Assembly: GCA_013360875.1 (NCBI GenBank)
Contig: JABWAU010000020.1
Span: 1 to 41,743, forward strand
From: Anaerolineales bacterium
GTDB lineage: Bacteria; Chloroflexota; Anaerolineae; Anaerolineales; Villigracilaceae
Reading direction: 5' to 3'
Length of the DNA: 41,743 nt
The notes below the pieces were generated by a model that saw only the letters and a list, made by a program, of their open reading frames with translations, was not told the origin of the DNA and searched no databases. This document shows, in pieces, positions 6,401-41,743 of the stretch. The first letter of the stretch is position 1. Each line of letters opens with the position of its first letter. The position numbers and the translations under genes are program-made.

Positions 6401-6594
6401 CGCTTGCGGCGCGCATCTTTTCCGTCGTGGATATTTGGGACGCCCTGCTCTCGGACCGTCCCTACCGGAAAGCGTGGCGCGAGGACAAGGTGATCGCATA
6501 CCTAAAGGAGATCTCGGGCGCCATTCTCGATCCGAAAGTCGTCAACGCCTTTATGAGGATGCTCGAGGAAAACGAAATAATAAAAAAGGGATAG
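451..6594 (+). CDS. Receiver-PAS-GAF(x8)-HD-GYP signalling protein
   Basis: This 2047-residue cytoplasmic protein probably hydrolyses cyclic di-GMP. Residues 1-120 are a response-regulator receiver domain with acidic residues E7, D8, D9, phospho-acceptor D55, T83 and K105. Three PAS domains follow at about 140-255, 265-380 and 390-510, ending in the usual DIT/DVT/DLT-type motifs. Eight GAF-like modules then run from about 540 to 1845. The C-terminus (about 1855-2040) is an HD-GYP domain with LLHDIGK near 1910 and HHEHWDGSGYP near 1965. No histidine kinase or GGDEF domain is present, so input from phosphorylation and many ligand pockets would converge on one phosphodiesterase. No membrane segment is visible. 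The start ATG at 451 directly precedes the receiver core; the Shine-Dalgarno is weak. No cognate kinase gene adjoins it. Domain boundaries are estimated by eye. Confidence 0.9.
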   Translation: MKILYVEDDTTHVELTQRTLEDSLKERFVLLHSDSFQAALEVLEKETDIDIVLSDLRLPDGSGLDLLKRIRERPMPPAVVLVTGQGDEQAAVAALKAGAADYLVKQSDYLHRLPFVVTNAVAQNNLAREQAAKLEAQVRYQSLVEQTPAVVFLDTLDEIEETIYISPRVEELTGYTPDEWQADDFRWEDHIHPEDRERILEADRRSRDKGGRFAEEYRFIRRDGRVVWIKEDTSLIRDANGNPLYWQGILIDITREKEAQAAIQESEERFRRVFHASPIATCVVTLEEGRFIDANLAFQNLTGMSLGRLIGYTSLELGFWDQKSERENFVRRLKEQGSLKGVEIQFKNVPNGPRDTLAYYELVELGGTACVLAMFYDVTEQKNAQKAIQSERDFALQILNNMGQGLTVSARDGSFEYVNPAFAGMLGYAAEEMIGKTPLDFTAPADRAALREERAKRESGISSTYESRLIHKDGREVPVTITAVPRVQDGKIIGTIAVITDLTNRKRTEEALARQVKELTVLRAVSVAGTEGGSEDEVIAKIVRITTQIYDEVCGVLLLEEGGATLKPHPSYFGANVEYWKDGVPIAQGVTGKCVSLGRPQRLGNISKEPAYIEIASGIRSELCVPIYVNKRIIGVFNVESRKAEAFDEEDEQFLVTVAGTLGTALESVRLYETERLRREEAETLREATASLSAHIEIESLLEQILVSLRKIVPYDSASIFLEKNEEEMEIVAAKGFPEGEKVVGRIVKNTARWAELVKTRQTLIMPDAREDPRFEKWEVSHEIRGWMGVPMITQDKVVGFINLDSHRVNAFTERDATLVQIFAHSAAVAIQNAILFNAEREQRKREETMLELMRVTTSTLELDAVMQTILQHMINLIPSDSGTIQLLENGRLRITATQGFKSDVLIMGQTLRLEDSPLKQRALNTLQPVWVNDTHQDPNYRFFAGVEDINSFMAIPLVYKGDAIGLATLDSRQRGRYSREDAEFAFTIANQAAIAIGNARLYQEALRASERRAVLHRISQDIVRFTQDAERIYRSIHEAAEKLMPCNVFTVTLKNEAADENVFVYVMENGVRYHPENRPAREGLSGAVINEDRSVILRNEQEIEAAGFPHFGSTMRVNSVAAVPMRVGDKTIGMISAQSYEPNSYQDEEQRLLEMLATHAATAIENARLFQEERRRTQIIETLVDIANEIATTQDIMPVLDKITQRALELLHANHVAIYLLHDDNHTLKVITAQGIHRQELLAQTLKVGEGITGSVVATGKPEIIELVASDRRRKRVLGTPESDAERETMMSSPLILRGRRIGAINAWRLRTNGVFTGVELSFLTSIANQVSVAIESSNLFKETVRRAQESAAIAEVGRDISATLQLDVVLNRIATYAMELLNGESSAVYLLDPARSLLRAIAAQGKDAAEIMNDPLEMGRGILGNLALNKAGEIVNDTFNDPRSVIIKGTEVDPHEHLMGVPVLEKDQLTGLVVVWRSGVENEFKPSDLDFLNSLAQQAATAIKNARLYDEAQRRLREVETINRLSSSLRETQSQTEMCNILLDETLDLLEADHGSVWILDTSINMIVQRAARGVAEKVRNPRLKPNEGIVGHVLNTGRRHISADMKNDPLLYRGNRDVILDGYGGAGIPIKSTDGILGVLIVQIESSRRVEDHLNLLETLAEIAGNAIHRADLFDQSQEQVRKLTTLRDIDSAIASSTDLRVTLNILMDHTLRHLKVDAVDILLYHPELQSLTYLCSAGFRSASPTRPMMRIGEGLAGQVVLKGRIGQVPDLQRSSEVARDPLLAREGFVSYIGVPLIVKGQIKGVFEIFTRSPLSINDEWTQFMQTLTGQAAIAIDNSQLFDNLQRSNQEIRQAYDTTLEGWARALEIRDRETEGHTRRVTQLTMQLARYMNVSDDEMVNIYRGVLLHDIGKMGVPDHILRKTGPLTEQEWVEMRKHPQYAFDLLSPIPYLRPALDIPYCHHEHWDGSGYPRGLKGEQIPLAARIFSVVDIWDALLSDRPYRKAWREDKVIAYLKEISGAILDPKVVNAFMRMLEENEIIKKG

Positions 6595-22785: not shown

Positions 22786-25329
22786 ATGTCAACTTTAAAA
22801 CCGAACCGGTCCCATAAAGCCCAGTTGATCGCCGCCGGGGCAATATCCGTCGTTGCCCAGGGTTTGTTGATCCTGCCTGCCAGCCTGATCCCCCAAATGA
22901 GCCTGCCCGATTGGGGAAGCGTCACAATTGGCGTGACGTTTTTTGCAATCGCCACCATTTGGATTCTTTCCACGATTCGATCTCTCGACGTGGGATGGCG
23001 CGGCAACGCGCATTTCATCCTGAACCAGGCGATCATCGTCATCGGCTTTTTCCTTCTCTCGACCTCCTCCGATTCGGTCGTACACCTGGGCGGATTCCTC
23101 CTTACGAGCCTGATCACCGCTCTGACAGTGTACGGCATCATCGCGAACACGGCGTCGCCCTCGCTTACCGGCGTGGTCATGGAGCGGGAAAAGGAAAGGG
23201 AAGCCTCCCGCCCGGCCGACCTTTCTCAAAACGCGGAAACCCTGAAGGAACTGGCGGAAATCGCAAACCAGAAACTGAATGCGGAAAAACAACGCGCCGC
23301 GCAGCTCACCCACCTGGTCGAGTTGTGCCAGCAGCTCCACGACGAACTCGACCCGCCCGTTGCCGCGCAACTTGTGGTCAACACCCTGGAACGGGCCGTG
23401 AAATGCACGGTCGTTTCCCTGATGACCTACGAGGCGGATAACGGGGAATTTGTCACGCTGGCTTCGAGCGGACCCCTGACCCACCTCGTTCCGCCCGGAC
23501 TGTTGCTTGGCGCGGGCAGGGGCTTGCACGAGCGCGTCGTCCGTTTGAAGAAGACCGTCATCGTGAACGATACCGCCCTCGATTCGGATTTCATCCCGGT
23601 CAACAACGAAAACACCCGCTCGCTGGTCATCGTCCCCTTGATATCACAGGGATCCGTCAAGGGCGCGTTGGAGGCGCGCTCCGACCAGACCTACGCCTTC
23701 AACAACACGGATGTTTCCAGCATCGAAGGGGCGGCGGCTGAATTGACGCGCGCCTGGGAACGCGCCAACTACAACCAGCGGTTGACCGAACTCATCCAGT
23801 CTGGCATTTCGCTCACCACATTGCTCGATCCGCAAGCCGCTGTGCAGGAGATCGCCCTCCTCGCCCGAAAAACATTCGGGGCGCGCTTTGTTTTTGTCAC
23901 CCTGCTCGACCAGCAGGGGTCTTTTTCCCGCGTTGCCCACGCCGGAGAGGCGCCGCGTTTGTTGAAATCTCTGAGCAACAACCCCGCCGGGGAGCCGCTT
24001 TTGCAAGCCGCGCTGAACGCGGCAAAGCCGTTTCGTGTGCGCGACCTGAGGAAATATACGAATCGCACCAACCTGGATATCGACAGTTCCAACCTGCGGA
24101 GCGTGCTGGCGATACCCATCCGATTGCATCGTCTGAGCATTGGGACGATTCTGGCATTCGGCAAACAGGACGGCATCTTCTTTTCTGAAAGGGACGAGTC
24201 GCTGGCGGACCTGCTCGGGTCGCAGGCGGCGGCTTCCGTGGAAAGTTCGTGGTTGTATCAGGAATTGCGGGATACGCTCAACATCACCTCCATGCTTTTG
24301 CAGTTAAGCAAGGACGTGCTGATGGCGGAGGAGGACAGAAAGGCAGCGGAGACGATCCTGCGCGCCGCGCACAGAGCCGCGAGCGCAACCGAATCGGGGA
24401 TCATTCTCATGGCGCCCAACGGCGATATTCAGGTGGAGGTCGAACTGGACGGCAGCGGTTTTCATACGCGCCGCCGCCATCCCATGGACACCATCCAGCA
24501 GTCAATCCAGATGGGTCAGAGCGTGTTCGTTTCCAAAAATCAAGGCGTGCTGGTCTGTTATCCGCTGATGATGCGGTCGCGGGGGCTTGGTGCATTGTGG
24601 ATGGAAATCCCGGAAAGCCGCGGCAAGAATTTCTCGAACATTCAGTTGCTGGTGAATCAGGCGGCGGTTTCGCTCGAACGCGTGAACCTGCTCGCCGAGT
24701 CCCGCAGGCAGGCGAGGGAGATCGAAGCCGCGTACGAGGAATTGGAGGCGACCTACGATCAGACCCTCAAGGCATTGATGTCCGCGTTGGACGCGCGCGA
24801 TCGTGAAACGGAAGGTCACAGCATGCGCGTCAGCCGCCTGGCTTGTTTGTTGGGGGAAAGGATCGGGTTGAACGGCGAGCAACTCAAAGCGCTGGAGAGA
24901 GGCGCATTGCTCCACGACATCGGCAAGATCGGCATCAGCGATTCCATCCTGCATAAACCCGGCACGCTGACCGACGACGAATGGAAGATCATGCGCCTGC
25001 ATCCCGAGATCGGCGCGCGGATCGTGGAGCGCATCCCATTCCTCCAGGAAAGCATGTCGGTGGTGCGTTATCATCACGAACGCTGGGACGGGAGCGGTTA
25101 TCCGCTCGGCATAAAGGGGGAGGAGATTCCCATCCACGCGCGCATCTTCGCCGTGGTGGATGTGTTCGACGCGCTGACCAGCAACCGCAGTTACAGAAAG
25201 CGGGCGACGCCGGAAGAGGCGTTGCAGTATTTACGGGAACAGTCCGAGACCTTGTTCGACAGCAGGATCGTGGAAGCCCTATCGCAACTTCCCTATCGGG
25301 ATTTCGTCGAAGGGGGCAGGTTTTCATGA
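22786..25329 (+). CDS. Membrane GAF/HD-GYP cyclic di-GMP phosphodiesterase
   Basis: An 847-residue membrane protein. Four membrane segments occupy residues 10-125. A coiled-coil-like charged stretch (EREKEREASRPAD to NAEKQRAAQL, about 130-175) leads to three GAF-like modules (about 185-325, 340-490 and 505-640), then an HD-GYP domain from about 655. The catalytic signatures are complete: HSMRVSRLA, LLHDIGK near 709 and HHERWDGSGYPLGIKGEEIP near 763. It is predicted to hydrolyse cyclic di-GMP in response to small ligands or redox state. The ATG at 22786 has no Shine-Dalgarno but follows a good promoter closely. Its stop overlaps the next start as ATGA, coupling it to a diguanylate cyclase. Confidence 0.93.
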   Translation: MSTLKPNRSHKAQLIAAGAISVVAQGLLILPASLIPQMSLPDWGSVTIGVTFFAIATIWILSTIRSLDVGWRGNAHFILNQAIIVIGFFLLSTSSDSVVHLGGFLLTSLITALTVYGIIANTASPSLTGVVMEREKEREASRPADLSQNAETLKELAEIANQKLNAEKQRAAQLTHLVELCQQLHDELDPPVAAQLVVNTLERAVKCTVVSLMTYEADNGEFVTLASSGPLTHLVPPGLLLGAGRGLHERVVRLKKTVIVNDTALDSDFIPVNNENTRSLVIVPLISQGSVKGALEARSDQTYAFNNTDVSSIEGAAAELTRAWERANYNQRLTELIQSGISLTTLLDPQAAVQEIALLARKTFGARFVFVTLLDQQGSFSRVAHAGEAPRLLKSLSNNPAGEPLLQAALNAAKPFRVRDLRKYTNRTNLDIDSSNLRSVLAIPIRLHRLSIGTILAFGKQDGIFFSERDESLADLLGSQAAASVESSWLYQELRDTLNITSMLLQLSKDVLMAEEDRKAAETILRAAHRAASATESGIILMAPNGDIQVEVELDGSGFHTRRRHPMDTIQQSIQMGQSVFVSKNQGVLVCYPLMMRSRGLGALWMEIPESRGKNFSNIQLLVNQAAVSLERVNLLAESRRQAREIEAAYEELEATYDQTLKALMSALDARDRETEGHSMRVSRLACLLGERIGLNGEQLKALERGALLHDIGKIGISDSILHKPGTLTDDEWKIMRLHPEIGARIVERIPFLQESMSVVRYHHERWDGSGYPLGIKGEEIPIHARIFAVVDVFDALTSNRSYRKRATPEEALQYLREQSETLFDSRIVEALSQLPYRDFVEGGRFS

Positions 25330-26864
25330 AAGCCAGCAAGCCGGCCGCCACGTTCGCCCCGCAGGAGGTCAGGCGTTTCATTTCACCGCTCACGATTGCC
25401 ACGCTCGTCATCCTGACGGGTTTGATTATGGAAGCCGTTTCGAGGCGCCCGGCGCCGAATCTCCCGCTAGCGTTCTACGGAGGGCTGGGGATCGCCTACA
25501 TTGCCACCGTTCACATCCTCCTCCTCCGCTCCGCGTTCAGGCATGGGACGTATCGGGTCATCAACTCGGTTCTGGCGGGCATTGGGATCGGCATCTTGAC
25601 CTATCTGCTCTCCGAGCGCTTGAATGAGATCACGCACATCCTGGTCCTCTTCAGCGTTGTGGTGATGACGATGATCTCGGGACGGATGTACGCCTATCTG
25701 ACGTTGTTTCTAATCATGGCGGTCAGCCTGCCGGCGGAACTTTCCCAACTCAGGACGGCGGAAGGGATTCTCGATTACACGACGCCGTTTGTCGTTTCCG
25801 TAATCGTCGCGGAAGTCATCATACGGATCAAGAATACCGCCCACCAGCACATCCACAGGCTGGAGATCATCAACCAGGTCAGCCGCGAGATCATGCAAAC
25901 TCTCGATACGAAGCAGACCTTCGCGCTCCTGGACAAGACCATTCAGGATACGCTCGGAGCCGACACCTATTTCATCGGCATCGTCAAGGATGGGAAGATT
26001 CAACTCGAACTATTCTTCGACGATGGAGAATACTTCAACGGGATGCGCGTCCCTTTCGAGGGGACGCTTTCCGGCTGGGTGATCCGAAATCAAAAGGTAT
26101 TGTTCCTGCCGGACTTGAGGGAGGAGGTGGAGTTGGACGGCGTCGAACGTTTCATCATCGGAAGGGATCGGACGAGTCTTTCCTGGATCGGAGTGCCACT
26201 CAAAGCCGAAAACGTGACCGGCGTCCTCGCGCTGGCGTCCTATGCCGCCAATGCGTTCGACCGCGCCGACCTCGAACTGCTCATCAGCCTCGGCCAGCAC
26301 GTCACCCTGGCGTTGGACAATACCATCCGCCACGCGCAAGTCGAAAGGCAGGCGCGGCTCGACAGCATGACCGGCGTCTACAACCACGGATATTTCCTCA
26401 AGTTGCTTGCGGAACAGGCGGAGGAGGCGTCGAGAACACAAACGCCCCTCAGCCTGATCATGCTCGACATTGATTATTTCAAGCAATACAACGACACGTA
26501 TGGTCACCTGGTGGGAGACCGCATTTTGAATTCGCTTTGTTCGGCGATCCAGCGCAACATCAAACAGGCGGATGCCGTCGGCAGGTGGGGCGGCGAGGAG
26601 TTCATCATTTCCCTGCCCGGAGCGACCGGCAGGCAGGCACATCGGATCGCCCGGCGCATCGGCGAGACCATGAGAAGCCTGCGTGTGGAAGACCGCGATA
26701 ACCGCACCGTTCCCATACCGACCGTCAGCCAGGGGATCGCCGTGTACCCTGACGAGGCGAACGAAATCTATCGCCTGATTGATGTTGCCGACAAACGGTT
26801 ATACGTTGCAAAAGAACGGGGCAGGAACCAGGTCGAGCCGGGGGAGGAATTCTTTCAGGAATAG
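25326..26864 (+). CDS. Membrane GAF/GGDEF diguanylate cyclase
   Basis: A 512-residue membrane protein that should make cyclic di-GMP from two GTP. About six membrane segments lie in residues 15-170, then a GAF module (about 190-335), then a GGDEF domain. The active-site loop is GGEEF at 422-426, and the metal-binding MLDIDYFKQYNDTYGH precedes it, so the enzyme looks active. The inhibitory-site position, normally RxxD, reads KQAD (413-416), so product inhibition may be weak. The ATG at 25326 overlaps the stop of the HD-GYP gene (ATGA) and has a G-rich Shine-Dalgarno-like sequence upstream; it is preferred over longer frames that run inside the upstream gene. Synthesis and breakdown enzymes are thus made from one transcript. 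Confidence 0.93.
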   Translation: MKASKPAATFAPQEVRRFISPLTIATLVILTGLIMEAVSRRPAPNLPLAFYGGLGIAYIATVHILLLRSAFRHGTYRVINSVLAGIGIGILTYLLSERLNEITHILVLFSVVVMTMISGRMYAYLTLFLIMAVSLPAELSQLRTAEGILDYTTPFVVSVIVAEVIIRIKNTAHQHIHRLEIINQVSREIMQTLDTKQTFALLDKTIQDTLGADTYFIGIVKDGKIQLELFFDDGEYFNGMRVPFEGTLSGWVIRNQKVLFLPDLREEVELDGVERFIIGRDRTSLSWIGVPLKAENVTGVLALASYAANAFDRADLELLISLGQHVTLALDNTIRHAQVERQARLDSMTGVYNHGYFLKLLAEQAEEASRTQTPLSLIMLDIDYFKQYNDTYGHLVGDRILNSLCSAIQRNIKQADAVGRWGGEEFIISLPGATGRQAHRIARRIGETMRSLRVEDRDNRTVPIPTVSQGIAVYPDEANEIYRLIDVADKRLYVAKERGRNQVEPGEEFFQE

Positions 26865-32816: not shown

Positions 32817-32988
32817 TTCAGCCTCCATTGATAAAGTGTGACCGGCGCGCGCCAGTCGCCAGTTATAATAACCCGAATGTTTGTTCTAAGATACGCGGCT
32901 CGGAGGATTTTTGTCAACTCCAGGGACAAATCTCGACAACTACACCGGAACGGAATCACGACCATGAAAACCCGACAACCGGACAGGA

Positions 32989-32994
32989 TATAAT
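32989..32994 (+). promoter_or_regulatory. Possible -10 element, nearly leaderless transcript
   Basis: A perfect TATAAT at 32989-32994 lies 10 nt before the ATG at 33005. The -35 region (about 32966) matches poorly. If used, transcription would begin within a few bases of the start codon, which also lacks a Shine-Dalgarno. Confidence 0.4.
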
Positions 32995-33004
32995 CGGCGC
33001 GGAT

Positions 33005-33658
33005 ATGTCCTTCATTGCCGAATTCGAGTCGCGTCTGCCCGCAAAACTGCGCCGGAAATTCAATCAACTGAACACCCCCTTCGCCATCCAGGACTATCTG
33101 GACAGCCTGATCTACAAGGGAGAGGAACGCGACCGTTCTCCCCTCAACGTCATGCTGGACGGACAGGCGCACTGCCTCGACGGTGGATTCCTTGCCGCGC
33201 TCTGCCTGTGGCGGATCGGCTTCAAACCGCTTCTCATTGACCTTTTGCCGGATCCCGGCGTGGACGATGACCACGTCCTCGCGCTGTATCGTATCGAAGG
33301 ACGCTGGGGCGCGCTGGCGAAATCCAATTACGTCAATCTCGGCTTCCGCGAGCCGGTTTACAAATCCCTGCGCGAATTGGTGATGACCTACTTCGAACAC
33401 TACGTCAGCATCCGCCAGCGCAAGGTTCTGACCGGCTATACGCGTCCCATTGACGCATCGCGTTATGCACATCTCGATTGGGCGTGGGACGAAGCCGGGG
33501 CGAACATCCTGTACCACAAACATTTCTACGGGCGCAAAGCGATTCGCCTCATCACCCCGGGCATGGCGGCGCGCCTCAGCCCCGTCACAGACAGAGCCTA
33601 TCGCGCGGAAACGCTCTTCACCGATTTGAACGAGTCGTTTGGGAATCGGAGGTATTGA
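33005..33658 (+). CDS. Transglutaminase-like cysteine hydrolase family protein
   Basis: A 217-residue soluble protein. It resembles the transglutaminase-like fold: GQAHCLDGGFLAALCLWRIG (around residue 59) supplies a cysteine at the start of a helix, DDDHVLALY (around residue 83) supplies a histidine on a strand, and KSNYVNLGFREP follows where an aspartate/asparagine would complete the triad. The assignment to this fold is by pattern only. The start ATG 33005 is chosen since the conserved region begins there; a longer TTG-started frame upstream would run through the divergent promoter region. The gene stands alone, with a palindrome-rich intergenic region after it. Confidence 0.65.
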   Translation: MSFIAEFESRLPAKLRRKFNQLNTPFAIQDYLDSLIYKGEERDRSPLNVMLDGQAHCLDGGFLAALCLWRIGFKPLLIDLLPDPGVDDDHVLALYRIEGRWGALAKSNYVNLGFREPVYKSLRELVMTYFEHYVSIRQRKVLTGYTRPIDASRYAHLDWAWDEAGANILYHKHFYGRKAIRLITPGMAARLSPVTDRAYRAETLFTDLNESFGNRRY

Positions 33659-33883: not shown

Positions 33884-34624
33884 ATGACCATTCACCTCAC
33901 CCCCACAGAAGAGACCGAACTCAACCATAAGAGACCTCTCAAAGAGGATATTTTCGACGCCCTGCTGGAAAAGATCATCTCGGGCAAATACAAACCCGGC
34001 GCATGGCTCCGGCAGGAAGACATCGCTTCACAACTTGGGGTAAGCATGACTCCCGTGCGGGAGGCTTTGGATTTGCTCGATGCGGCGGGTCTGGCCGAAC
34101 GCGTCCCGTATCGCGGGGTGCGCGTCCCACAACCGACGCATGAAACGATCGCGGAGTCCTACGTCACGCGGCTGCTGCTGGAAAAAGCCGTCAGCCGCGC
34201 GGCGGCTCTTAACCGGGAGCAGGCTCACGTCGAGGCGTTGAAGCGGATCGTCGGTCAGTCCAAAAAATTGATCCGTGTGGACGATATGTCCGCCTCCCGC
34301 AAACTGAGCGGCGATTTCCATTCCACAGTGGCAGAGGCGACAAAGAACTCAACATTGATACGCGTGTACAAAGTGGCGGCAAACTCCTTCCCCGACTGGA
34401 TGCTGTATCAGGCAATGTTCGAGCATCCTGAAGAGTTGGAGCAAAGCGTAAAGGAGGAATACGAGGAACACCTTGCCATCGCGGAAGCAATCGAGGCGCA
34501 GGATGCGGACCTCGCAGAACAACGCGCAATGGAGCATATTCGCGACATCGGCAGACAGATCGTGACGTATCTGGGCGTCCCCCAGAAATTGCTCGATCAG
34601 AAAATGATCCAAATGGGTTTGTAA
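33884..34624 (+). CDS. GntR-family transcriptional regulator, FCD (FadR) type
   Basis: A 246-residue regulator. The N-terminal winged helix-turn-helix is clear: DALLEKIISGKYKPGAWLRQ, EDIASQLGVSMTPVREALDLL, then a wing (AERVPYRGVRV). The C-terminal FCD domain (about residues 88-230) is all-helical and includes DFHSTVAEATKN and EEHLAIAEAIEAQD, holding acidic and histidine residues at which FCD domains bind metal and ligand. FCD ligands are usually carboxylates. The ATG at 33884 has GAGG six nucleotides upstream. Next to it is a corrinoid protein, so it likely controls the methyltransferase genes in response to their substrate (inference). Confidence 0.93.
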   Translation: MTIHLTPTEETELNHKRPLKEDIFDALLEKIISGKYKPGAWLRQEDIASQLGVSMTPVREALDLLDAAGLAERVPYRGVRVPQPTHETIAESYVTRLLLEKAVSRAAALNREQAHVEALKRIVGQSKKLIRVDDMSASRKLSGDFHSTVAEATKNSTLIRVYKVAANSFPDWMLYQAMFEHPEELEQSVKEEYEEHLAIAEAIEAQDADLAEQRAMEHIRDIGRQIVTYLGVPQKLLDQKMIQMGL

Positions 34625-34638
34625 ATCATTTGGACTCA

Positions 34639-34673
34639 GGGAGCTTGCTCCCGTAACTCGCCAGCAGGCTGGC
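34639..34673 (+). other. Two adjacent hairpins before the corrinoid protein gene
   Basis: GGGAG, CTTG, CTCCC (about 34639-34652) and GCCAG, CAGG, CTGGC (34660-34673) form two five-base-pair stems with four-base loops, placed between gntR and the corrinoid gene. They are followed by the Shine-Dalgarno AAAGGAG. They may mark processing or partial termination. Confidence 0.45.
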
Positions 34674-34693
34674 TGATTCCAAAAGGAGAAAAC

Positions 34694-35344
34694 ATGTCTG
34701 AGGAACTCTACAAACAGATGGCGCAGAGCATCATTGACGGCGAGAAGGAACTCGCAATCGAACTCGCGCAAAAATCCATCGAAATGAACATGCATCCGCT
34801 CGATACGATCACGAAGGGCTTCGTGGTGGGCGTCAATTACATTGGCGACCAGTTTGGCAAGGGCGAGGCGTTTTTGCCTGAGTTGGTGATGGCGGGTGAA
34901 GCGATGAAAGCCGCGGTGGCTGTGTTGGAACCGGAGTTATTGAAACTCGGCGAGGCGCGCGAGATGATGGGACGCGTCGTGCTTGCCACAGTCGAAGGCG
35001 ACATCCACGAGATCGGCAAGACGCTCGTCGGGACGATGTTGAGCGCGGCGGGCTTTGAGGTCGTTGACCTGGGAGTTGATCAACCTGCCGAGAAAATCAT
35101 CGGCAAGGCGCTCGAAATAGACGCGCAGATCATCGGCATGAGCGCGCTGCTTACGACGACGATGGTGCGCCAACGCGAGGTCATCGAGGAACTGGACAAG
35201 GAAGGTTTGCGTCCGCGCATCAAGGTCATGGTGGGCGGCGCGCCGATCACCAAGGATTGGGCGGACAAGATCAAGGCGGACGGTACATCGGAGGACGCCG
35301 TCGGCGCGGTGCAACTGGCGAAGAAACTGGTTGGGAAGGAATAA
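34694..35344 (+). CDS. Corrinoid protein (MttC/MtgC-like methyl carrier)
   Basis: A 216-residue methyl-carrier protein that holds cobalamin and shuttles a methyl group between methyltransferases. The helical cap (about residues 1-85) precedes the Rossmann-like B12-binding domain. The signature D103-I-H105-E-I-G108 in EGDIHEIGKTL gives the cobalt-ligating histidine H105; MSALLTTTM (about 152-160) and VMVGGAPITKDWADKI (about 175-190) complete the pocket. The length is standard for MtbC/MttC/MtmC carriers. The ATG at 34694 has AAAGGAG eight nucleotides upstream. It is the only corrinoid protein in the window and lies directly before two MttB-type genes, so it likely serves all of them. Confidence 0.96.
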   Translation: MSEELYKQMAQSIIDGEKELAIELAQKSIEMNMHPLDTITKGFVVGVNYIGDQFGKGEAFLPELVMAGEAMKAAVAVLEPELLKLGEAREMMGRVVLATVEGDIHEIGKTLVGTMLSAAGFEVVDLGVDQPAEKIIGKALEIDAQIIGMSALLTTTMVRQREVIEELDKEGLRPRIKVMVGGAPITKDWADKIKADGTSEDAVGAVQLAKKLVGKE

Positions 35345-35375
35345 ATTTTCAACCACAAAGGAATTGAAAATTGGT

Positions 35376-35437
35376 GGAATCCGCAAGTTCTACTTGTGAG
35401 TTTCCACAGGTTTCCAGAAGTAGAACTTCTGGATTCC
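35376..35437 (+). promoter_or_regulatory. Long hairpin between the corrinoid and first MttB genes
   Basis: GGAATCC (35376-35382) pairs with GGATTCC (35431-35437), and after a 2-nt internal loop AAGTTCTACTT (35385-35395) pairs with AAGTAGAACTT (35418-35428), leaving a 22-nt loop. The right arm can instead form its own hairpin (CCAGAAGT, AGA, ACTTCTGG). Two exclusive folds just before the mttB Shine-Dalgarno (GGGAGG, 35445-35450) could modulate expression of the methyltransferase relative to the carrier. Confidence 0.6.
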
Positions 35438-35455
35438 ATGCCTCGGGAGGGCGCC

Positions 35456-36907
35456 ATGTCAAAAAACATCAAGTCAATAACCAATCCGAAGTTGAAACTC
35501 GAAATCCTGACCTCGGAAGAAGTACAAAAGATCCACGATGCCACGTTGTGGATCATCGAAAACGTCGGCGTGCGGTTTCCATCCGAGCGGGCGCTGGAGA
35601 TATGGGAAACCAACGGCGCGACAGTGGATCGCGAAAAGAAGATCGTGCGCGCCAAGCCGAAGGTCATAGAAGACGCGTTGAAGAAATGTCCGCCCGCGTA
35701 TACGCTCGCGGCGCGCCATCCTCAGCAGGACTGTCCGCTGGATGGGAATCACGTCTTCCTCGGGACGGACGGCTGCGGCGTGGAAGTGATTGACATCCAA
35801 ACGGGTCAAAAACGGACCTCGAGCCTGCGCGACGTGCGAGACATCGCCCGCGTCGCCGACGCCACGGAGGAGGTCGGCTTCCACTGGGTGCCGGTCTCCG
35901 CACAGGACAAACCCGCCGAGACGCGCGGTCTGTATGAGATTAAGACGATTTGGGAGAACTCCACCAAGCACGTGCAAACCGAGTCCATCTACAGCATCCA
36001 TGAGGCGTATGCCGCGATGGAAATGGCGGCATTGCTCGCAGGCGGCAAGGATGAGTTGCGGAGGCGACCCGTCCTCTCGTTGATGCAATGTACCGCCTCC
36101 CCGCTCGGTCACGATGGCGGCAGCCTGGATGCGGCGTTGATCGCGGCGGAGCATGGCATCCCGACCGGATTCATGACGATGGCATCCTGCCTGACGACCG
36201 GTCCCGCAACGATGGCGGGAAATCTTGCAGTGGGCAACGCGGAGGTCATTGCAGGAACGGCGTTGCTTCAACTCGCATTTCCCGGCGCGCCGGTCTTCTA
36301 CGCCGCCGCGCAGACCGCCGCTGATTTGCAATCCGGTGCCTACACCGGCGGCGGCCCGGAGGACTTCCTCTTCGGCGCGGCGACCAACGTGCTGGCAGAT
36401 TTCTATAACATTCCACTTTCGATGGGCGCGTTTGCGACCGGCGCCAAGGAACCCAATTGGCAGGCGGGACTGGAAGGCGCCATGTCCAGTTTCATGGCGA
36501 GCGTGGTCATGTCCGACATGCTGCTCGGTTGCGGATTCCTGCACGGGAGCCGCATCTGGTCCTACGCCGAGATGATGATGGATTGCGAGATCTTTTCGAT
36601 TGTCCATAAGATGATGCAGGGTATCGAAGTGAACGAGGAAACGCTTGCATTGGAAACGATTGCCAAAGTCGGTCCCGGCGGTCACTACCTCGCGCAGAAA
36701 CATACGCGCAAACACGCCCGCGAACTCTTCCGCCCCGAATTCATGGATCGCCGTCCGTACAGCGAATGGGAAACCAAGAAGGACGATGCTAGGGATTGGG
36801 CTTTAGCGAAGGCAAGGCGAATTTTGCAGGAGCATCAACCCGATCCGCTCGACCCGAAGATCAGCGCGGAGATGGCGAGGATCATTGAGTCGGTGGAGAA
36901 ACAGTAA
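35456..36907 (+). CDS. MttB-family (COG5598) methyltransferase, first copy
   Basis: A 483-residue protein of the trimethylamine methyltransferase (MttB) superfamily, TIM-barrel enzymes that move a methyl group from an amine to a corrinoid protein. Family marks are the N-terminal LTSEEVQKIHDATLWIIENVGV helix, SLRDVRDIARVADATEEV, GPATMAGNLAVGNAEVIAGT and GGPEDFLFGAATNVLADFY. There is no in-frame stop, so it is of the pyrrolysine-free type, like the glycine betaine enzyme MtgB. The substrate cannot be read from the sequence. The ATG at 35456 is preferred over one at 35396, because GGGAGG lies just upstream and the extra residues come from the hairpin region. It follows the corrinoid gene closely, so it is the natural first partner. 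Confidence 0.92.
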   Translation: MSKNIKSITNPKLKLEILTSEEVQKIHDATLWIIENVGVRFPSERALEIWETNGATVDREKKIVRAKPKVIEDALKKCPPAYTLAARHPQQDCPLDGNHVFLGTDGCGVEVIDIQTGQKRTSSLRDVRDIARVADATEEVGFHWVPVSAQDKPAETRGLYEIKTIWENSTKHVQTESIYSIHEAYAAMEMAALLAGGKDELRRRPVLSLMQCTASPLGHDGGSLDAALIAAEHGIPTGFMTMASCLTTGPATMAGNLAVGNAEVIAGTALLQLAFPGAPVFYAAAQTAADLQSGAYTGGGPEDFLFGAATNVLADFYNIPLSMGAFATGAKEPNWQAGLEGAMSSFMASVVMSDMLLGCGFLHGSRIWSYAEMMMDCEIFSIVHKMMQGIEVNEETLALETIAKVGPGGHYLAQKHTRKHARELFRPEFMDRRPYSEWETKKDDARDWALAKARRILQEHQPDPLDPKISAEMARIIESVEKQ

Positions 36908-36919
36908 AACACATTTACC

Positions 36920-37016
36920 ATGTCATTCTGAGCAGAGCGAAGAATCTCTACGACAGTCTCACAGACCCTTCGCCACACCTGCACTTGCGTGCGGTGCAAG
37001 TGTCGCTCAAGGTGGT
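36920..37016. repeat. Expanded dispersed repeat between the two MttB genes
   Basis: TGTCATTCTGAGCAGAGCGA begins at 36920 and matches the left half of the dispersed repeat. The right half (CCCTTCGC...TCGCTCAAGGTGG) is split by an extra hairpin, CACTTGC/GCAAGTG (36982-37002). The repeat lies in the space between mttB copies one and two and could affect transcription or mRNA stability. It also adds spurious open codons upstream of the second gene. Confidence 0.65.
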
Positions 37017-37046
37017 CCACCCATAAAAAGAAAGGAGATTACCGGT

Positions 37047-38531
37047 ATGCAGCCCAAACTCACCCTGTTATCCGATGAACTGATTCCGCGCATCGTGGAG
37101 GAGGCGTATCAACTCATGCTCAAGCCGGGCATCAAGGTGATGAACGCGGAGGCGCGCCAACTTCTTGCCGGGGCAGGCGCGCAGGTGGATGAAGAGACGT
37201 TCGTCGTCAAAATCCCGGCACAGATCGTAAAGAACGCGCTGAGTACCGTCCCGCAGAAGTTTCATCTTTACGATTACGATGGGAACCCCAAAGTGGAATA
37301 CGGCGGCGATACGGTGCAGTTCGACCCGGGTTCTTCCGGCGTCGCCATCTTCGATCCCGACACCCTCGAACACAAAACCGCCGAAACGCAGGACCTCATC
37401 AAACTCATCAAGATCGCGGAACAACTCCCGCAATACGATGCGCAGTCCACGATGGTGGTGTGTGACGACGTTCCAAAGGATCTGCACGACCTGTATCGTT
37501 TATACCTGGTCATGCTGTATTCGAAAAAGCCCATCGTCACCGGCGCGTTCACCAACACGACCGTGCATCAGATGATCGAGATGCTTGCCATCTTTGCGGG
37601 CAGCCACGAACAACTACGCAAGAAACCGCGTGCCATCTTCGACGTCTGTCCCTCGCCGCCGTTGATCTGGTCGAACTTCGGCGCAGGGAATCTCATTGCC
37701 CTCGCGCGCGCGGGCATCCCAGCGGAGATCGTTTCGATGCCGCTGGCAGGCGCGGCGGCTCCAGTCACTTTATTGGGGGCTGTTACACAACACGCCGCAG
37801 AGTGTCTTTCAGGCATCACCATCCATCAACTTGCCAAACCCGGCTCTCCCATCGTCTGGGGCGGCGCGCCCTCCATCTTCGACATGCGCAAGGGCGGCAC
37901 ACCGATGGGTTCGATGGAAACCGCCATGATCGATTCCTCCTACGCGCAGGTCGGCAAATGGCTCGGTCTGCCCACACACGCCTACCTCGGCACGACCGAA
38001 TCCAAAGTCCTCGACATGCAAGCCGGTCTCGAAAGCGGCATGGGCGCGTTGATCGGCGCGTTGAGCGGCATCAACATGATCTCCGGTTCGGGCATGTTGG
38101 ATTCGCTCCTCTGTCAAAGCCCCGAAAAACTTGTCATTGACGCGGAAGGCATCGCCATGGCGAAGCGCATGTTGCAGGGGATGAAAATCCACACCGAGAC
38201 GCTCGCCACCGGCTTCTACGACAACGACATCAATTTCAAGGGCGGAGATTTCCTCAAGCAAAAGATCACGATGAAGTTGTTCCGCGAGGAGCAGCATATT
38301 CCGAGCAACGTCATTGACCGGGACTCGATCCGCGGCTGGAAGGCATCCGGCGGACTGGACACCCTCGGGCGCGCCAAACTCCGCGTCAAGGAACTGCTCG
38401 CTTCCTATACCAAGCCGGAACTTGATCCCGCCAAAGTGGAGCGACTCCACGCCTTTGTCCTTGACCTCGCGCGCAAGGCGGGAATGGACGCGTTGCCCGT
38501 ACACGATCTTTCGCCGGTTGTGGCTGGTTGA
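37047..38531 (+). CDS. MttB-family (COG5598) methyltransferase, second copy
   Basis: A 494-residue member of the MttB superfamily, clearly different from the first copy: KLTLLSDELIPRIVEEAYQLML at the start, then PSPPLIWSNFGAGNLIALARAGIP, LAGAAAPVTLLGAVTQHAAECLSG and WGGAPSIFDMRKGG. The C-terminal half has MGALIGALSGINMISGSGML, as expected for the family. No in-frame stop, so pyrrolysine is not used. The ATG at 37047 has GGAGA eight nucleotides upstream; the frame continues upstream only through the repeat at 36920-37016, so a longer protein is rejected. It lies in the same direction as the corrinoid gene and is probably co-transcribed. Confidence 0.92.
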   Translation: MQPKLTLLSDELIPRIVEEAYQLMLKPGIKVMNAEARQLLAGAGAQVDEETFVVKIPAQIVKNALSTVPQKFHLYDYDGNPKVEYGGDTVQFDPGSSGVAIFDPDTLEHKTAETQDLIKLIKIAEQLPQYDAQSTMVVCDDVPKDLHDLYRLYLVMLYSKKPIVTGAFTNTTVHQMIEMLAIFAGSHEQLRKKPRAIFDVCPSPPLIWSNFGAGNLIALARAGIPAEIVSMPLAGAAAPVTLLGAVTQHAAECLSGITIHQLAKPGSPIVWGGAPSIFDMRKGGTPMGSMETAMIDSSYAQVGKWLGLPTHAYLGTTESKVLDMQAGLESGMGALIGALSGINMISGSGMLDSLLCQSPEKLVIDAEGIAMAKRMLQGMKIHTETLATGFYDNDINFKGGDFLKQKITMKLFREEQHIPSNVIDRDSIRGWKASGGLDTLGRAKLRVKELLASYTKPELDPAKVERLHAFVLDLARKAGMDALPVHDLSPVVAG

Positions 38532-38692
38532 TACGTACAAACGCGGCTCCTGTGTGATTTGTGTACAGACGTTAGAGAACGTCCGCTACGCGCAAATGTT
38601 TTTGCACAATTTTCATAGATGAGCCGCAAACGCAAACAGGCGGACATATACACGCGTGTCCACCTGTTTACCTCCGTGTACCTCCATCCCCC
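38532..38692 (+). other. Intergenic region with CGTTAGAGAACG motif
   Basis: No gene is visible. ACGTT, AGAG, AACGT (38569-38582) forms a short hairpin. Its core CGTTAGAGAACG is an exact inverted copy of one at 40590-40601 after the peptidase gene, so the two bracket that gene. GGACA and TGTCC form another weak hairpin at about 38642-38661. No Shine-Dalgarno is clear before the ATG at 38693. Confidence 0.4.
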
Positions 38693-40558
38693 ATGCTTGA
38701 CCTCGCCCAACTCCTCCGCGTCCCCCAAGTTGACCACCTCTTCGACATTTCGCCTGTTGGCTCCAAACTCGCCTTTGCCTGGAACAAGACAGGCGATTGG
38801 CAGATCTACGAGATGAGTTTGTCCCCCTCTCCCAATGGGAGAGGGGCTAGGGTTGAGGGAGCGGTTCAACTCACATCCGGTCCCGGCGGCAAATTCAACC
38901 CGCGCTACTCCCCCGATGGGACAAAACTCGCGTATGCCTCGGATATTGACGGGGGTGAAAGTTACCATCTCGTCGTTTACGACTTCACCACAAAACAAGA
39001 CACGGACCTGACCCCAAATATTCCTCATGCGCTGCAACCCAACTTTTGCTGGTCGCCGGATGGAAGCCAACTGGCGTTTCTCAGCGACGAAAAGGGACAT
39101 TTCAGCGCGTACATCATTTCATCGGACGGCGGAGAACCGCAACTCGTGCTGGATACCGGTCACCCCGCCTGGCAGGTGGAGTGGTCGCCTGACGGAAAGC
39201 ATCTCGCGGTCAGTTGCGAAATGCGCGGACAGGACTACGGGATATTTATCGTTGAGGTATGTCATTCCGAGCGAAGCGAGGAATCTCCGCCTTTGCTAAA
39301 GAGACCCTTCGCTGTCGCTCAGGGTGACAATCCACTTAACGCACACGAACCCAGATGGTTTCCTGATGGGAGTAAACTGGCATTCCATTCTGACCTGTAT
39401 GGGTGGTTCGACGTTGGAGTTTATGACCTGTCTACGAGAGAAATCGAGTGGGTCACAAAGGGCGAAGACGATTCACAAACGCCGATTGTCCTCCCACACC
39501 AGCAAGAGCGCGGTCAAAAACATCAACTTGCCTACACACAGAGCAGGGGCGCGGTCAATTGGATCGAGGCGGGTAAGATTTCTCAGTCGCAGGGAACGCT
39601 CCTTCGAAATGACAGGGTAAAGTATCGGATTGGGAAAGGCATCCACGCTGGAATCAGGTTCACGTCCGATTCGAAGCGGGTGGTGACGGCGTTCAGCAGT
39701 CCCAGTAAGCCTCCCGATCTCTGGATGATTGATCTCGAGTCGGGCGAGTCCATCCAATTGACTCATTCGCTGCCGGAGGAATTATCAAGGGAAGAGTTTG
39801 TCATGCCGGAGGAAATTGAATATCCGGGCATGGACGGCACGCCCATTCCCGCGTTGTTGTATCGCTCGAAGCAAACGCCCGCGCCTGCCGTGGTGATGAT
39901 CCACGGCGGACCGAACTGGCATTACTCAATGGAATGGAACCCGATCATCGCGCATCTGGCAAGTCGCGGATATGTTGTTCTATGCCCCAACTATCGCGGC
40001 TCGACCGGCTACGGGCGCGCGTGGCAATACGCCGCGCAGTTCGACATGGGTGGCGTGGATACGCGCGATGTCGCCGCGGGCGCGCAATATCTGTTGCGTG
40101 AGGGAATTGCACATCGTATTGCGGTGACGGGAAGGAGTCACGGCGGGTATTTGACGATGACGTGCCTGACCCAATTCCCGGGGTTGTGGCGCGCGGGATC
40201 GGCGGTTGTGCCGTTTACGAACTGGTTCAAGTCTCATTACGATTCCCGCGAAGACCTGCAACATTGGAACATCGAGAACATGGGCGATCCCGGGGAGAAT
40301 TATGAGCGCTGGTACAACGCCTCGCCGTATTTCTTTTTGGACAGGATCGAAGCGCCCGTGCAAATGATCTGCGGCGGGAATGATCCGCGTTGCCCCGCAT
40401 CGGATTCGATTGACACACGTGATAAACTTGTCGAACTGGGCAAGAATGTGGATTTTCTATTGTATGAAGATGAAGGTCATGCCTTCCTGAAAATCGAGGA
40501 TGTTTTGGATGCCGAAACAAAACGTGTGGAGTTTCTGGCGAAGGCGTTGGATTCATAA
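38693..40558 (+). CDS. S9-family prolyl oligopeptidase-like serine peptidase
   Basis: A 621-residue serine peptidase of the acylaminoacyl-peptidase/DPP type. The N-terminal half is a TolB-like beta-propeller with repeated PDG-type blades (YSPDGTKLAYASD, WSPDGSQLAF, WSPDGKHLAV, WFPDGSKLAF). The C-terminal half is an alpha/beta hydrolase with the nucleophile S482 in GRSHGG, the acid in GGNDPRCP (about 562-569) and the histidine in DEGHAF (about 594). No signal peptide is seen, so it probably acts in the cytoplasm. The start ATG 38693 has no Shine-Dalgarno. Three segments derive from dispersed repeats and interrupt the propeller: about residues 44-56, 190-212 and 294-308. Why a peptidase sits in a methyltransferase cluster is unclear. 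Confidence 0.92.
   Translation: MLDLAQLLRVPQVDHLFDISPVGSKLAFAWNKTGDWQIYEMSLSPSPNGRGARVEGAVQLTSGPGGKFNPRYSPDGTKLAYASDIDGGESYHLVVYDFTTKQDTDLTPNIPHALQPNFCWSPDGSQLAFLSDEKGHFSAYIISSDGGEPQLVLDTGHPAWQVEWSPDGKHLAVSCEMRGQDYGIFIVEVCHSERSEESPPLLKRPFAVAQGDNPLNAHEPRWFPDGSKLAFHSDLYGWFDVGVYDLSTREIEWVTKGEDDSQTPIVLPHQQERGQKHQLAYTQSRGAVNWIEAGKISQSQGTLLRNDRVKYRIGKGIHAGIRFTSDSKRVVTAFSSPSKPPDLWMIDLESGESIQLTHSLPEELSREEFVMPEEIEYPGMDGTPIPALLYRSKQTPAPAVVMIHGGPNWHYSMEWNPIIAHLASRGYVVLCPNYRGSTGYGRAWQYAAQFDMGGVDTRDVAAGAQYLLREGIAHRIAVTGRSHGGYLTMTCLTQFPGLWRAGSAVVPFTNWFKSHYDSREDLQHWNIENMGDPGENYERWYNASPYFFLDRIEAPVQMICGGNDPRCPASDSIDTRDKLVELGKNVDFLLYEDEGHAFLKIEDVLDAETKRVEFLAKALDS
38821..38860 (+). repeat. In-frame CCCTCTCCC/GGGAGAGGG repeat in the peptidase gene
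   Basis: CCCCTCTCCC (38824-38833) and GGGAGAGGGG (38837-38846) form a ten-base-pair hairpin with an AAT loop, followed by CTAGGGTTGAGGG. The encoded peptide, LSPSPNGRGARVEG, has no propeller character and breaks a blade after residue 43. The frame is kept open. This is a different repeat family from the TGTCATT type. Confidence 0.75.
39260..39329 (+). repeat. In-frame TGTCATTCCGAG dispersed repeat in the peptidase gene
   Basis: A 70-bp unit running from TGTCATTCCGAGCGAAGCGA (39260) to CTCAGGGTGACA (ending 39329), with its ends inverted and inside it AGACCCTTCGCTGTCGC. It encodes CHSERSEESPPLLKRPFAVA within the propeller, between IFIVEV and NAHEPRWFPDG, which would otherwise adjoin in a normal blade. 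The frame is kept open. Confidence 0.85.
39574..39614 (-). repeat. Third repeat segment in the peptidase gene, reverse orientation
   Basis: Read on the minus strand this is TGTCATTTCGAAGGAGCG at its start (39614 downward) and a GACTGAGAAATCTTA end (39588-39574), the same family as the other TGTCATT repeats but in the opposite direction and shorter. It encodes KISQSQGTLLRND between NWIEAG and RVKYRIGKG, again without breaking the frame. Confidence 0.7.
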
Positions 40559-40567
40559 TCGGTAAAT

Positions 40568-40642
40568 CACGAAAACGCCGCGTAATTTGCGTTCTCTAAC
40601 GCAAATACGGGCGGTAGAGGCCGCCTAATACGCGCTTTCGTG
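40568..40642. other. Three-arm structured element between peptidase and third MttB gene
   Basis: The outer arms CACGAAAACGC (40568-40578) and GCGCTTTCGTG (40632-40642) pair over 11 positions with one mismatch. Inside are two hairpins: ATTTGCGTT, CTCT, AACGCAAAT (40585-40606) and GGCGG/CCGCC (about 40610-40625). The fold is a closed three-way junction. It may be a repeat, a terminator-like structure or an RNA element; no function is assigned. The rest of 40559-40717 shows nothing else. Confidence 0.5.
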
Positions 40643-40717
40643 AAGTACTGATAATCTGTGGTCTCGATACGGCGGACAAACGCCGCCCACTCGACCACCA
40701 GACTCTACAGGAGCCTT

Positions 40718-41743
40718 ATGCCGCCATTAAAATTCTTATCCGATGAAGATATAAAAGCGATGCACGAAGCCACGCTTCGCGTCCTGCAGGAGGCGGGTGT
40801 CTTTTGGACACACAAGCCCAGCCTCGAAATCTTGCAAGATGCGGGATGCACGGTCAAGGATAATCGCGTCTTCTTTCCTCCCGACCTAGTGTTGGATTCG
40901 ATTGTGAAGGCGAATAAGCGTCCTCTCATTCGCGGGCGCAACGGGCAGGTCAATGAACTCGGTGGGGGCAATTTGTATTTTCACAACCTCGGCGGCGCGC
41001 GGGATGTGTTCGATGCGAAGACTGGCACGCGTCACGCCGCAACGAACAAAGACGCTTGCAACGCCATCCGCCTGCTGGACGCGCTGCCGAATTGTCATAC
41101 GGTCACCCCATTCTTTACGCCGCCCGACGTATCCAATGAAATGCTTTCGCTGCGCATGTATCGCAGCGCGCTGTCGTACACGACCAAACCCGTGCAGGGA
41201 CCCGGCATCCAATTCGGGCATGAAGTCAGGTATGCAGTGGAGATGGCGGCTGTAGTCGGCACACCCGCGCATGAACTCACGCTCTCGCTTTCGCCAGTCA
41301 GCCCGCTGACGATGCACGACATCGCGGCGGAAGCGATCATGGAAATGGCGAAGCATGGCGTGATCCATGCCAACCTGCCCTGCCCGACCGGTGGCGCCAC
41401 CTCGCCCATGACCATTACGGGCAGCATCGTCCAGCAGAGCGCGGAGACACTGGCTCCGTTGGTGCTGGCACAACTCATCAACCCGGGATGTGGCGTCGTA
41501 TATTGCGGGAGATTGGGGATGCTGGAGCCGCGCACCGGATTGATCTGGGGAGGCGTCGAACTCGGACTCTCCTCCGCCGCCACGGTTCAACTCGGACATT
41601 ATTACGGATTCAGCGTCAACGTCTATGGGTTTTCAACGAACGCCCATACGCTCGACGCCCAAAACGCCTTCGAACGCGGACTCAACGCCGCCATCCCTGC
41701 CCTGGCCGGCGCGGACGAACTTTCCGGCATCGGCGAAATGGAG
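40718..41743 (+). CDS. MttB-family (COG5598) methyltransferase, third copy, partial
   Basis: The frame opens at ATG 40718 and stays open for 342 codons to the end of the window, so the C-terminus is missing. The N-terminus, LKFLSDEDIKAMHEATLRVL, is shared with the second copy (LTLLSDELIPRIVEEAYQL), and NLYFHNLGGARDVFDAKTGT, TNKDACNAIRLLDALPN, LSLSPVSPLTMHDIAAEAIM and CPTGGATSPMTITGSIVQQ are typical of MttB superfamily enzymes. No in-frame stop, so no pyrrolysine in this part. GGAG lies six nucleotides before the ATG. It is the third distinct MttB-type gene here; all probably share the one corrinoid protein at 34694-35344. Whether it differs in substrate cannot be told. Confidence 0.9.
   Translation, partial: MPPLKFLSDEDIKAMHEATLRVLQEAGVFWTHKPSLEILQDAGCTVKDNRVFFPPDLVLDSIVKANKRPLIRGRNGQVNELGGGNLYFHNLGGARDVFDAKTGTRHAATNKDACNAIRLLDALPNCHTVTPFFTPPDVSNEMLSLRMYRSALSYTTKPVQGPGIQFGHEVRYAVEMAAVVGTPAHELTLSLSPVSPLTMHDIAAEAIMEMAKHGVIHANLPCPTGGATSPMTITGSIVQQSAETLAPLVLAQLINPGCGVVYCGRLGMLEPRTGLIWGGVELGLSSAATVQLGHYYGFSVNVYGFSTNAHTLDAQNAFERGLNAAIPALAGADELSGIGEME

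Follow-up and report, generated by a model that had tools for sequence, protein, structure and literature searches.

A conserved Anaerolineales gene cluster likely to specify corrinoid-dependent demethylation through several MttB paralogs and one MtgC-like carrier, with two hydrolase genes in fixed association

The window, i.e. the whole stretch of 41,743 nucleotides that was analyzed, was an entire contig (C185) of a 4.0-Mb genome in 208 contigs. From position 33884 onward its plus strand carried, in order, genes for a GntR/FCD regulator, a corrinoid protein, two MttB paralogs (MttB-1 and MttB-2, here W1 and W2), an S9-family hydrolase, and the start of a third MttB paralog (MttB-3, W3), separated by gaps of 69, 111, 139, 161, and 159 bases. 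The first gene (33884..34624) encoded a GntR-family regulator of 246 residues with an FCD ligand-binding domain (PF00392, 4e-17; PF07729, 6e-19), as already read by a first-pass annotation, and occupied the same position in most relatives (22 loci). The regulator would sense a small ligand. It was followed at 34694..35344 by the gene for an MtgC-like corrinoid (B12) carrier of 216 residues with PF02607 and PF02310 domains. The cobalt-ligand motif DIHEIG, previously described as intact, was indeed found at residues 103-108 and conforms to the DxHxxG signature of MttB-type corrinoid proteins. Among NCBIfam models, that of MtgC gave the top match to the carrier, with 225 bits and thus below its cut-off of 310; TIGR02370 was matched with 221 bits, just above the cut-off of 215, and the best PDB match was MttC of 7xcn (2e-53).

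W1 (35456..36907, 483 residues), W2 (37047..38531, 494 residues; duplicated in several relatives), and W3 (40718..41743, the first 342 codons of a gene cut by the contig end) matched PF06253 far beyond chance, with E-values of 2e-92, 7e-92, and 2e-52. The scores of 310, 308, and, for the cut gene, 178 bits against a cut-off of 25 place all three in the MttB superfamily (PF06253/COG5598). The first-pass annotation had thus been right in recognizing three diverged genes of this superfamily devoid of internal stops. The families stood, whereas the extents did not: the starts of the longest open reading frames were replaced by the likely starts at 35456, 37047, and 40718, each an ATG after an AGGAG-like site, and the third gene proved incomplete. 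Nor were the MttB genes consecutive, as had been assumed. An overlooked gene for a hydrolase of 621 residues (plus strand, 38693..40558; PF00326 plus PD40 propeller), of the prolyl oligopeptidase/acylaminoacyl-peptidase type, stands between W2 and W3. The catalytic Ser, Asp, and His motifs of the S9 prolyl oligopeptidase family were intact (GRSHGG, GGNDPRC, and EGHAF), and nearly all S9 orthologs carried similar motifs.

The remainder of W3 was located on another contig (C143), which opened in frame with an MttB C terminus (L007 1-378; PF06253 positions 385-493). Comparison with the closest relative (G006) indicated that the last ~120 codons of W3 lie at the start of C143 and that ~7 codons are missing at the break. 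The possibility that W3 is a pseudogene was rejected because only the contig end cuts the gene and the remainder is on C143. Directly 3' of W3 on C143 was a gene for an M20 amidohydrolase (TIGR01891, 369 bits); further along, a dipeptidase-like gene lay on the opposite strand. In G006, whose W1 was 97-98% identical, the order W3-M20 was unbroken on one contig, and the gene order of the locus (L042) was identical. The S9 gene within the cluster and the M20 gene after W3, the latter beyond the window, are the most distinctive part of the arrangement.

Relatives of W1 were sought in the 60 nearest genomes and relatives of W3 in 400 genomes of the phylum. W1 orthologs (60-98% identity) were present in 18/60, and W3 was confined to a single family (17 genomes, 5 genera). 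In a plasmid collection, one match of 28% was found for W1 and none for W3. The stretches around the cluster genes were then compared over all open frames. The order regulator-MtgC-W1-(W2')-W2-S9-W3-M20 was conserved in ~20 relatives, and because W3 orthologs diverge to 59% identity, this order has outlasted much divergence, with the genomes sharing ancestry and not being independent samples. A gene for a lipoprotein-like alpha/beta hydrolase (c6) often came next after the cluster genes. Comparison with relatives gave dN/dS values of 0.03-0.07 for MtgC and 0.03-0.17 for the MttBs; over MtgC, W1, W2, S9, W3, and M20 the range was 0.03-0.19, i.e. purifying selection. The earlier proposal of several diverged, pyrrolysine-free MttBs on one carrier was borne out as a conserved trait, since relatives usually carried 2-4 MttBs per MtgC, and it has a biochemical precedent in Eubacterium limosum, whose MtpB, MtcB, and MtyB share MtqC as methyl acceptor (PMC8604678). 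At a separate locus in one relative (L056 6414-13113, G022:C76), the one-carrier theme recurred in a different form, with four additional diverged MttB genes side by side ahead of one MtgC gene and a peptide-type ABC permease adjoining.

W1, W2, and W3 shared only 23-28% pairwise identity (23% for W1 versus W2) and were 28-34% identical to MtgB of Desulfitobacterium hafniense (DhMtgB) and to Methanosarcina barkeri MttB, W1 having 34% identity to the former and 31% to the latter. Because internal stops are absent and the position of Pyl334 is occupied by Ala in W1, Thr in W2, and Ser in W3, their sequences assign them to the non-pyrrolysine class and not to the pyrrolysine-type trimethylamine MttBs. 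In the tree, W1 orthologs and W3 orthologs formed separate supported clades. The W2 set as labeled took in one stray (L120_5393), and W2 representatives formed a clade with 100% support in a reduced tree; the deep branching order among the paralogs was weakly supported, with many nodes at 49-70%. Residues Tyr94, Asn199, Arg309, and His345 of DhMtgB have been predicted by docking to bind glycine betaine (PMC6855144). All four were present in the Sinorhizobium meliloti homolog 4yyc and none in W1, W2, or W3, where the counterparts were Gly/Cys/Ser/Leu, Ser/Cys/His/Ser, and Gly/Ser/Asn/Ser, respectively. At these mapped positions the residues were invariant in 26/26 W1 and 25/25 W3 orthologs and kept in 37/38 W2 sequences, the exception being the stray. 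At 23-28% identity, W1-W3 are ancient paralogs, each with its own conserved set of pocket residues. They probably have three different, maintained specificities other than for glycine betaine, a reading built on a docking prediction of the pocket and not on a structure with bound substrate.

The first-pass annotation had seen neither a methyltransferase II (MT2) nor a RamA-type reactivase and had advised looking for both past position 41743. Their absence holds for the window and reflects the limit of the contig; neither was found among the genes read on C143, but both occur elsewhere in the genome and in the operons of relatives. A PF00809 methyltransferase gene directly followed M20 in ten loci and W2 in two (L050 and L057), which supports the earlier claim of methyl transfer to tetrahydrofolate, and RamA/RACo-like genes lay in or near the cluster in five relatives (G019, G020, G023, G032, and G049). 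In the genome itself, contig C198 encoded a PF00809 protein (MtgD) that passed the PRK07535 cut-off for methyl-tetrahydrofolate:corrinoid/iron-sulfur protein methyltransferases, as expected of an MT2, and was 59% identical to the in-operon type of the relatives. Activases of the RACo/RamA type (PF14574), the activating component of a three-component system, were encoded on C132 and C11. Besides its RACo gene, contig C11 encoded CODH (TIGR01702), ACS (NF040764, above cut-off), CFeSP-like subunits (assigned by eye), and an AcsE-like protein. The idea of a system incomplete for want of an MT2 or an activase was therefore rejected: every component is present in the genome. Because MT2, activase, and CODH/ACS are encoded elsewhere in it, the predicted route from MttB via MtgC and tetrahydrofolate into the Wood-Ljungdahl pathway is complete on paper. 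The operon suggests that this Anaerolineales lineage, a poorly understood group of uncultured Chloroflexota whose named relatives stem from metagenomes of groundwater and other sources, can draw part of its living from methyl groups via that pathway.

We consider it likely that the cluster is a regulated operon whose products take methyl groups off several methylated nitrogen compounds in a corrinoid-dependent manner. The MttB paralogs would act as methyltransferases I, each binding its own substrate, and would methylate the one MtgC at Co(I). The MtgD-type protein (on C198 here, in the operon in relatives) would move the methyl group onto tetrahydrofolate, a RACo/RamA-type activase would keep MtgC reduced, and methyl-tetrahydrofolate would enter the Wood-Ljungdahl pathway (ACS/CODH) or be oxidized through C1 reactions. 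This model is favored by the gene families with their intact motifs, the conserved order, the MtgD- and RamA-like genes in the clusters of relatives, the purifying selection, and the paralog-specific pocket residues. The genome's MtgD, two RACo proteins, second MtgC, and CODH/ACS/CFeSP/AcsE set, together with two precedents (PMC8604678 and PMC9768040), also count for it. Against it, S9 shows the lowest conservation within the cluster and has a frameshift in the closest relative; W3, which lacks a loop lysine, might have changed in function; and the MtgD of C198 adjoins another corrinoid protein (MtgC2, which shares 68% identity with the MtgC of the cluster), so that its role may instead lie with MtgC2 and methionine synthesis.

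We regard as rather unlikely the alternative of a split methionine synthase or methyl-salvage module in which methyl groups would go mainly to homocysteine, as in the MtgBCDE model (PMC12478193), and not to acetogenesis. SahH-like and MtnA-like genes occur close to those of MtgC2 and MtgD (L089 4076-10271), surroundings that suggest a methionine/methyl salvage neighborhood. On C132, the neighbors of the RACo gene encode a UroD-family protein and a homocysteine S-methyltransferase, and enzymes of the latter kind are encoded close to MtgD in a number of relatives (L046, L121, L124, L126, and L099). However, the operon in the window lacks an S-methyltransferase gene, and the genome encodes a MetH-type protein (on C162) as well as a full CODH/ACS.

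It appears improbable that one or more of the MttB paralogs have lost methyltransferase function, or work with a different corrinoid protein, so that clustering would mean shared regulation only. In W3, His replaces the loop lysine that is kept in W1, W2, MtgB, and MttB, and this His was found in 25/25 W3 orthologs; the mapped pocket positions differ from those of MtgB and MttB, and the second MtgC offers another possible partner. Yet all MttBs are under purifying selection with pocket residues conserved across genera, and MtgC remained beside W2/W3 even in loci where W1 was lost (L118, L119, L122, and L128).

Least probable of all is a plain demethylase for glycine betaine (or dimethylglycine) of the MtgB/MtgC/MtgD kind known from Desulfitobacterium or Ruegeria, the MtgB copies here being redundant. 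To this would point the closest PDB match of W1 (a glycine betaine methyltransferase, 34% identity), the MtgC model as top NCBIfam match, and the MtgD plus homocysteine S-methyltransferase genes nearby in relatives (as in PMC12478193). However, W1-W3 have none of the four predicted DhMtgB residues as against four in 4yyc, the pocket itself being a docking prediction, and neither a betaine transporter nor dimethylglycine/sarcosine genes were seen in the operon. The identity "glycine betaine demethylase" is thus not supported for W1-W3 by their sequences, nor is the quaternary-amine identity that the first-pass annotation had proposed.

In the loci with W3 (n = 25, counted by hand), S9 was directly upstream of W3 in 24/25 and M20 directly downstream in 24/25, and the same flanking was seen in loci without W1 (L118, L119, and L128). 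S9 was the least conserved cluster member (75-79% identity). In the closest relative its gene was split by a frameshift, real or an assembly error, between intact neighbors (L042 8512-10405). No obvious signal peptide was found by eye in S9 or M20; both would therefore act intracellularly on imported material, which fits the Opp/Dpp-type ABC transporter encoded within the cluster of some relatives (L051, L052, L053, and L120). The fixed neighborhood suggests a coupling in which S9 and M20 would first free methylated moieties from peptides or amides in the cell. Tentatively, and with appreciable doubt, we propose a pathway for peptide- or amide-linked methyl donors: S9 and M20 would cut imported peptides or N-acyl/amide conjugates that bear N-methylated residues, e.g. 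trimethyllysine, a betaine residue at the N terminus, or further quaternary amines in amide linkage, and MttBs of new specificities would demethylate the freed moieties onto one carrier. The choline kinase MthK has been called the first known enzyme to prepare a substrate for an MttB (PMC12155760); by analogy, the hydrolases may represent another kind of preparation. If the proposed pathway is true, the MttB superfamily would gain in them another type of partner that prepares substrates, the second after MthK, and with it a number of new substrates.

The three-component system and the use of one carrier by several MttBs are already known; the novelty, within the literature searched, lies in the constant association of MttBs with two hydrolases. 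Among the closest known systems is MtpB/MtcB/MtyB-MtqC-MtqA-RamQ of E. limosum (PMC8604678), in which pyrrolysine-free MttBs for different substrates likewise share one corrinoid protein, one tetrahydrofolate methyltransferase, and one activase and feed the Wood-Ljungdahl pathway. In E. limosum, however, the MttB genes are scattered and each is induced separately; those of the present cluster stand together downstream of one regulator gene, along with the S9 and M20 genes. D. hafniense MtgB/MtgC/MtgA (PDB 2QNE and 9YCE) belong to the same methyltransferase I and corrinoid families, with W1 34% identical to MtgB, but the predicted glycine betaine residues are missing here and the MT2 is of the PF00809 AcsE/MetH-like kind (PRK07535 model). 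The Roseobacter MtgB-MtgC-MtgD-MtgE split methionine synthase/betaine demethylase (PMC12478193) also unites a PF00809 MtgD and a homocysteine methyltransferase with MttB and a corrinoid protein; the present genome differs in having CODH/ACS, several MttBs per carrier, operon hydrolases, and a MetH-type protein in addition. The glycine betaine cluster of Ca. Formimonas warabiya (PMC9768040) has three MttB genes, corrinoid proteins, and one MT2, and this three-MttB cluster is induced in vivo; unlike here, it contains two corrinoid proteins and betaine transporters, and no peptidases are reported (PMC9768040). In the choline pathway MthK-MthB-MthC-MthA of E. limosum (PMC12155760) the gene for an MttB is accompanied by one for an enzyme that prepares the substrate, as may be the case here; MthK is a kinase making phosphocholine, whereas the candidates here are hydrolases of putative role. 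Two further proteins considered as relatives with other substrates were set aside: chloromethane CdmB belongs to the UroD superfamily, and for bathyarchaeial MtgB a lack of homology to known MT1s has been reported. That Anaerolineae carry annotated MttBs is known in general terms (PMC11264602). The literature searched, most subscription journals lying outside it, contained only generic mentions and no description of MttBs joined to S9/M20 or of this Anaerolineae operon. Most members of the MttB superfamily have no known substrate, and those of the cluster's MttBs look different, from the sequences, from the characterized ones. Pocket-conserved, selected paralogs with fixed hydrolase partners provide concrete clues from which new substrates can be guessed and then tested.

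Two more MttB genes were found in the genome. One (L009 7451-8881, contig C70) was very divergent, with 17-28% identity to the others and without the conserved loop lysine; a lipoprotein-like alpha/beta hydrolase gene preceded it and an Opp/Dpp transporter followed. The fifth (L008 1373-2821, contig C45) had no adjoining corrinoid protein gene, and a Pit-like phosphate transporter and a four-gene ABC transporter were nearby.

A dispersed repeat of the GTCATTCTGAGC-GAAGAATC type, outside the mechanism, lay on the plus strand in the W1-W2 spacer (36922..36946; 2 matches, 0 expected). Its second copy stood in frame inside the S9 gene (39261-39285), giving the peptide CHSERSEES; S9 genes of relatives (L042, L044, and L118) had different repeat-like insertions, likewise in frame, in these propeller loops. 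Just 5' of the operon, a reading frame of 276 codons (32828-33658) had no Pfam match and, among the loci compared, a counterpart only in the closest relative (95%). Elsewhere in the window, a REC/PAS/GAF(x8)/HD-domain protein of 2047 residues (451-6594) and two more proteins of the GAF-HD and GAF-GGDEF types (22786-25329 and 24981-26864) were encoded, a dense set of cyclic-di-GMP-type signaling genes on one contig.
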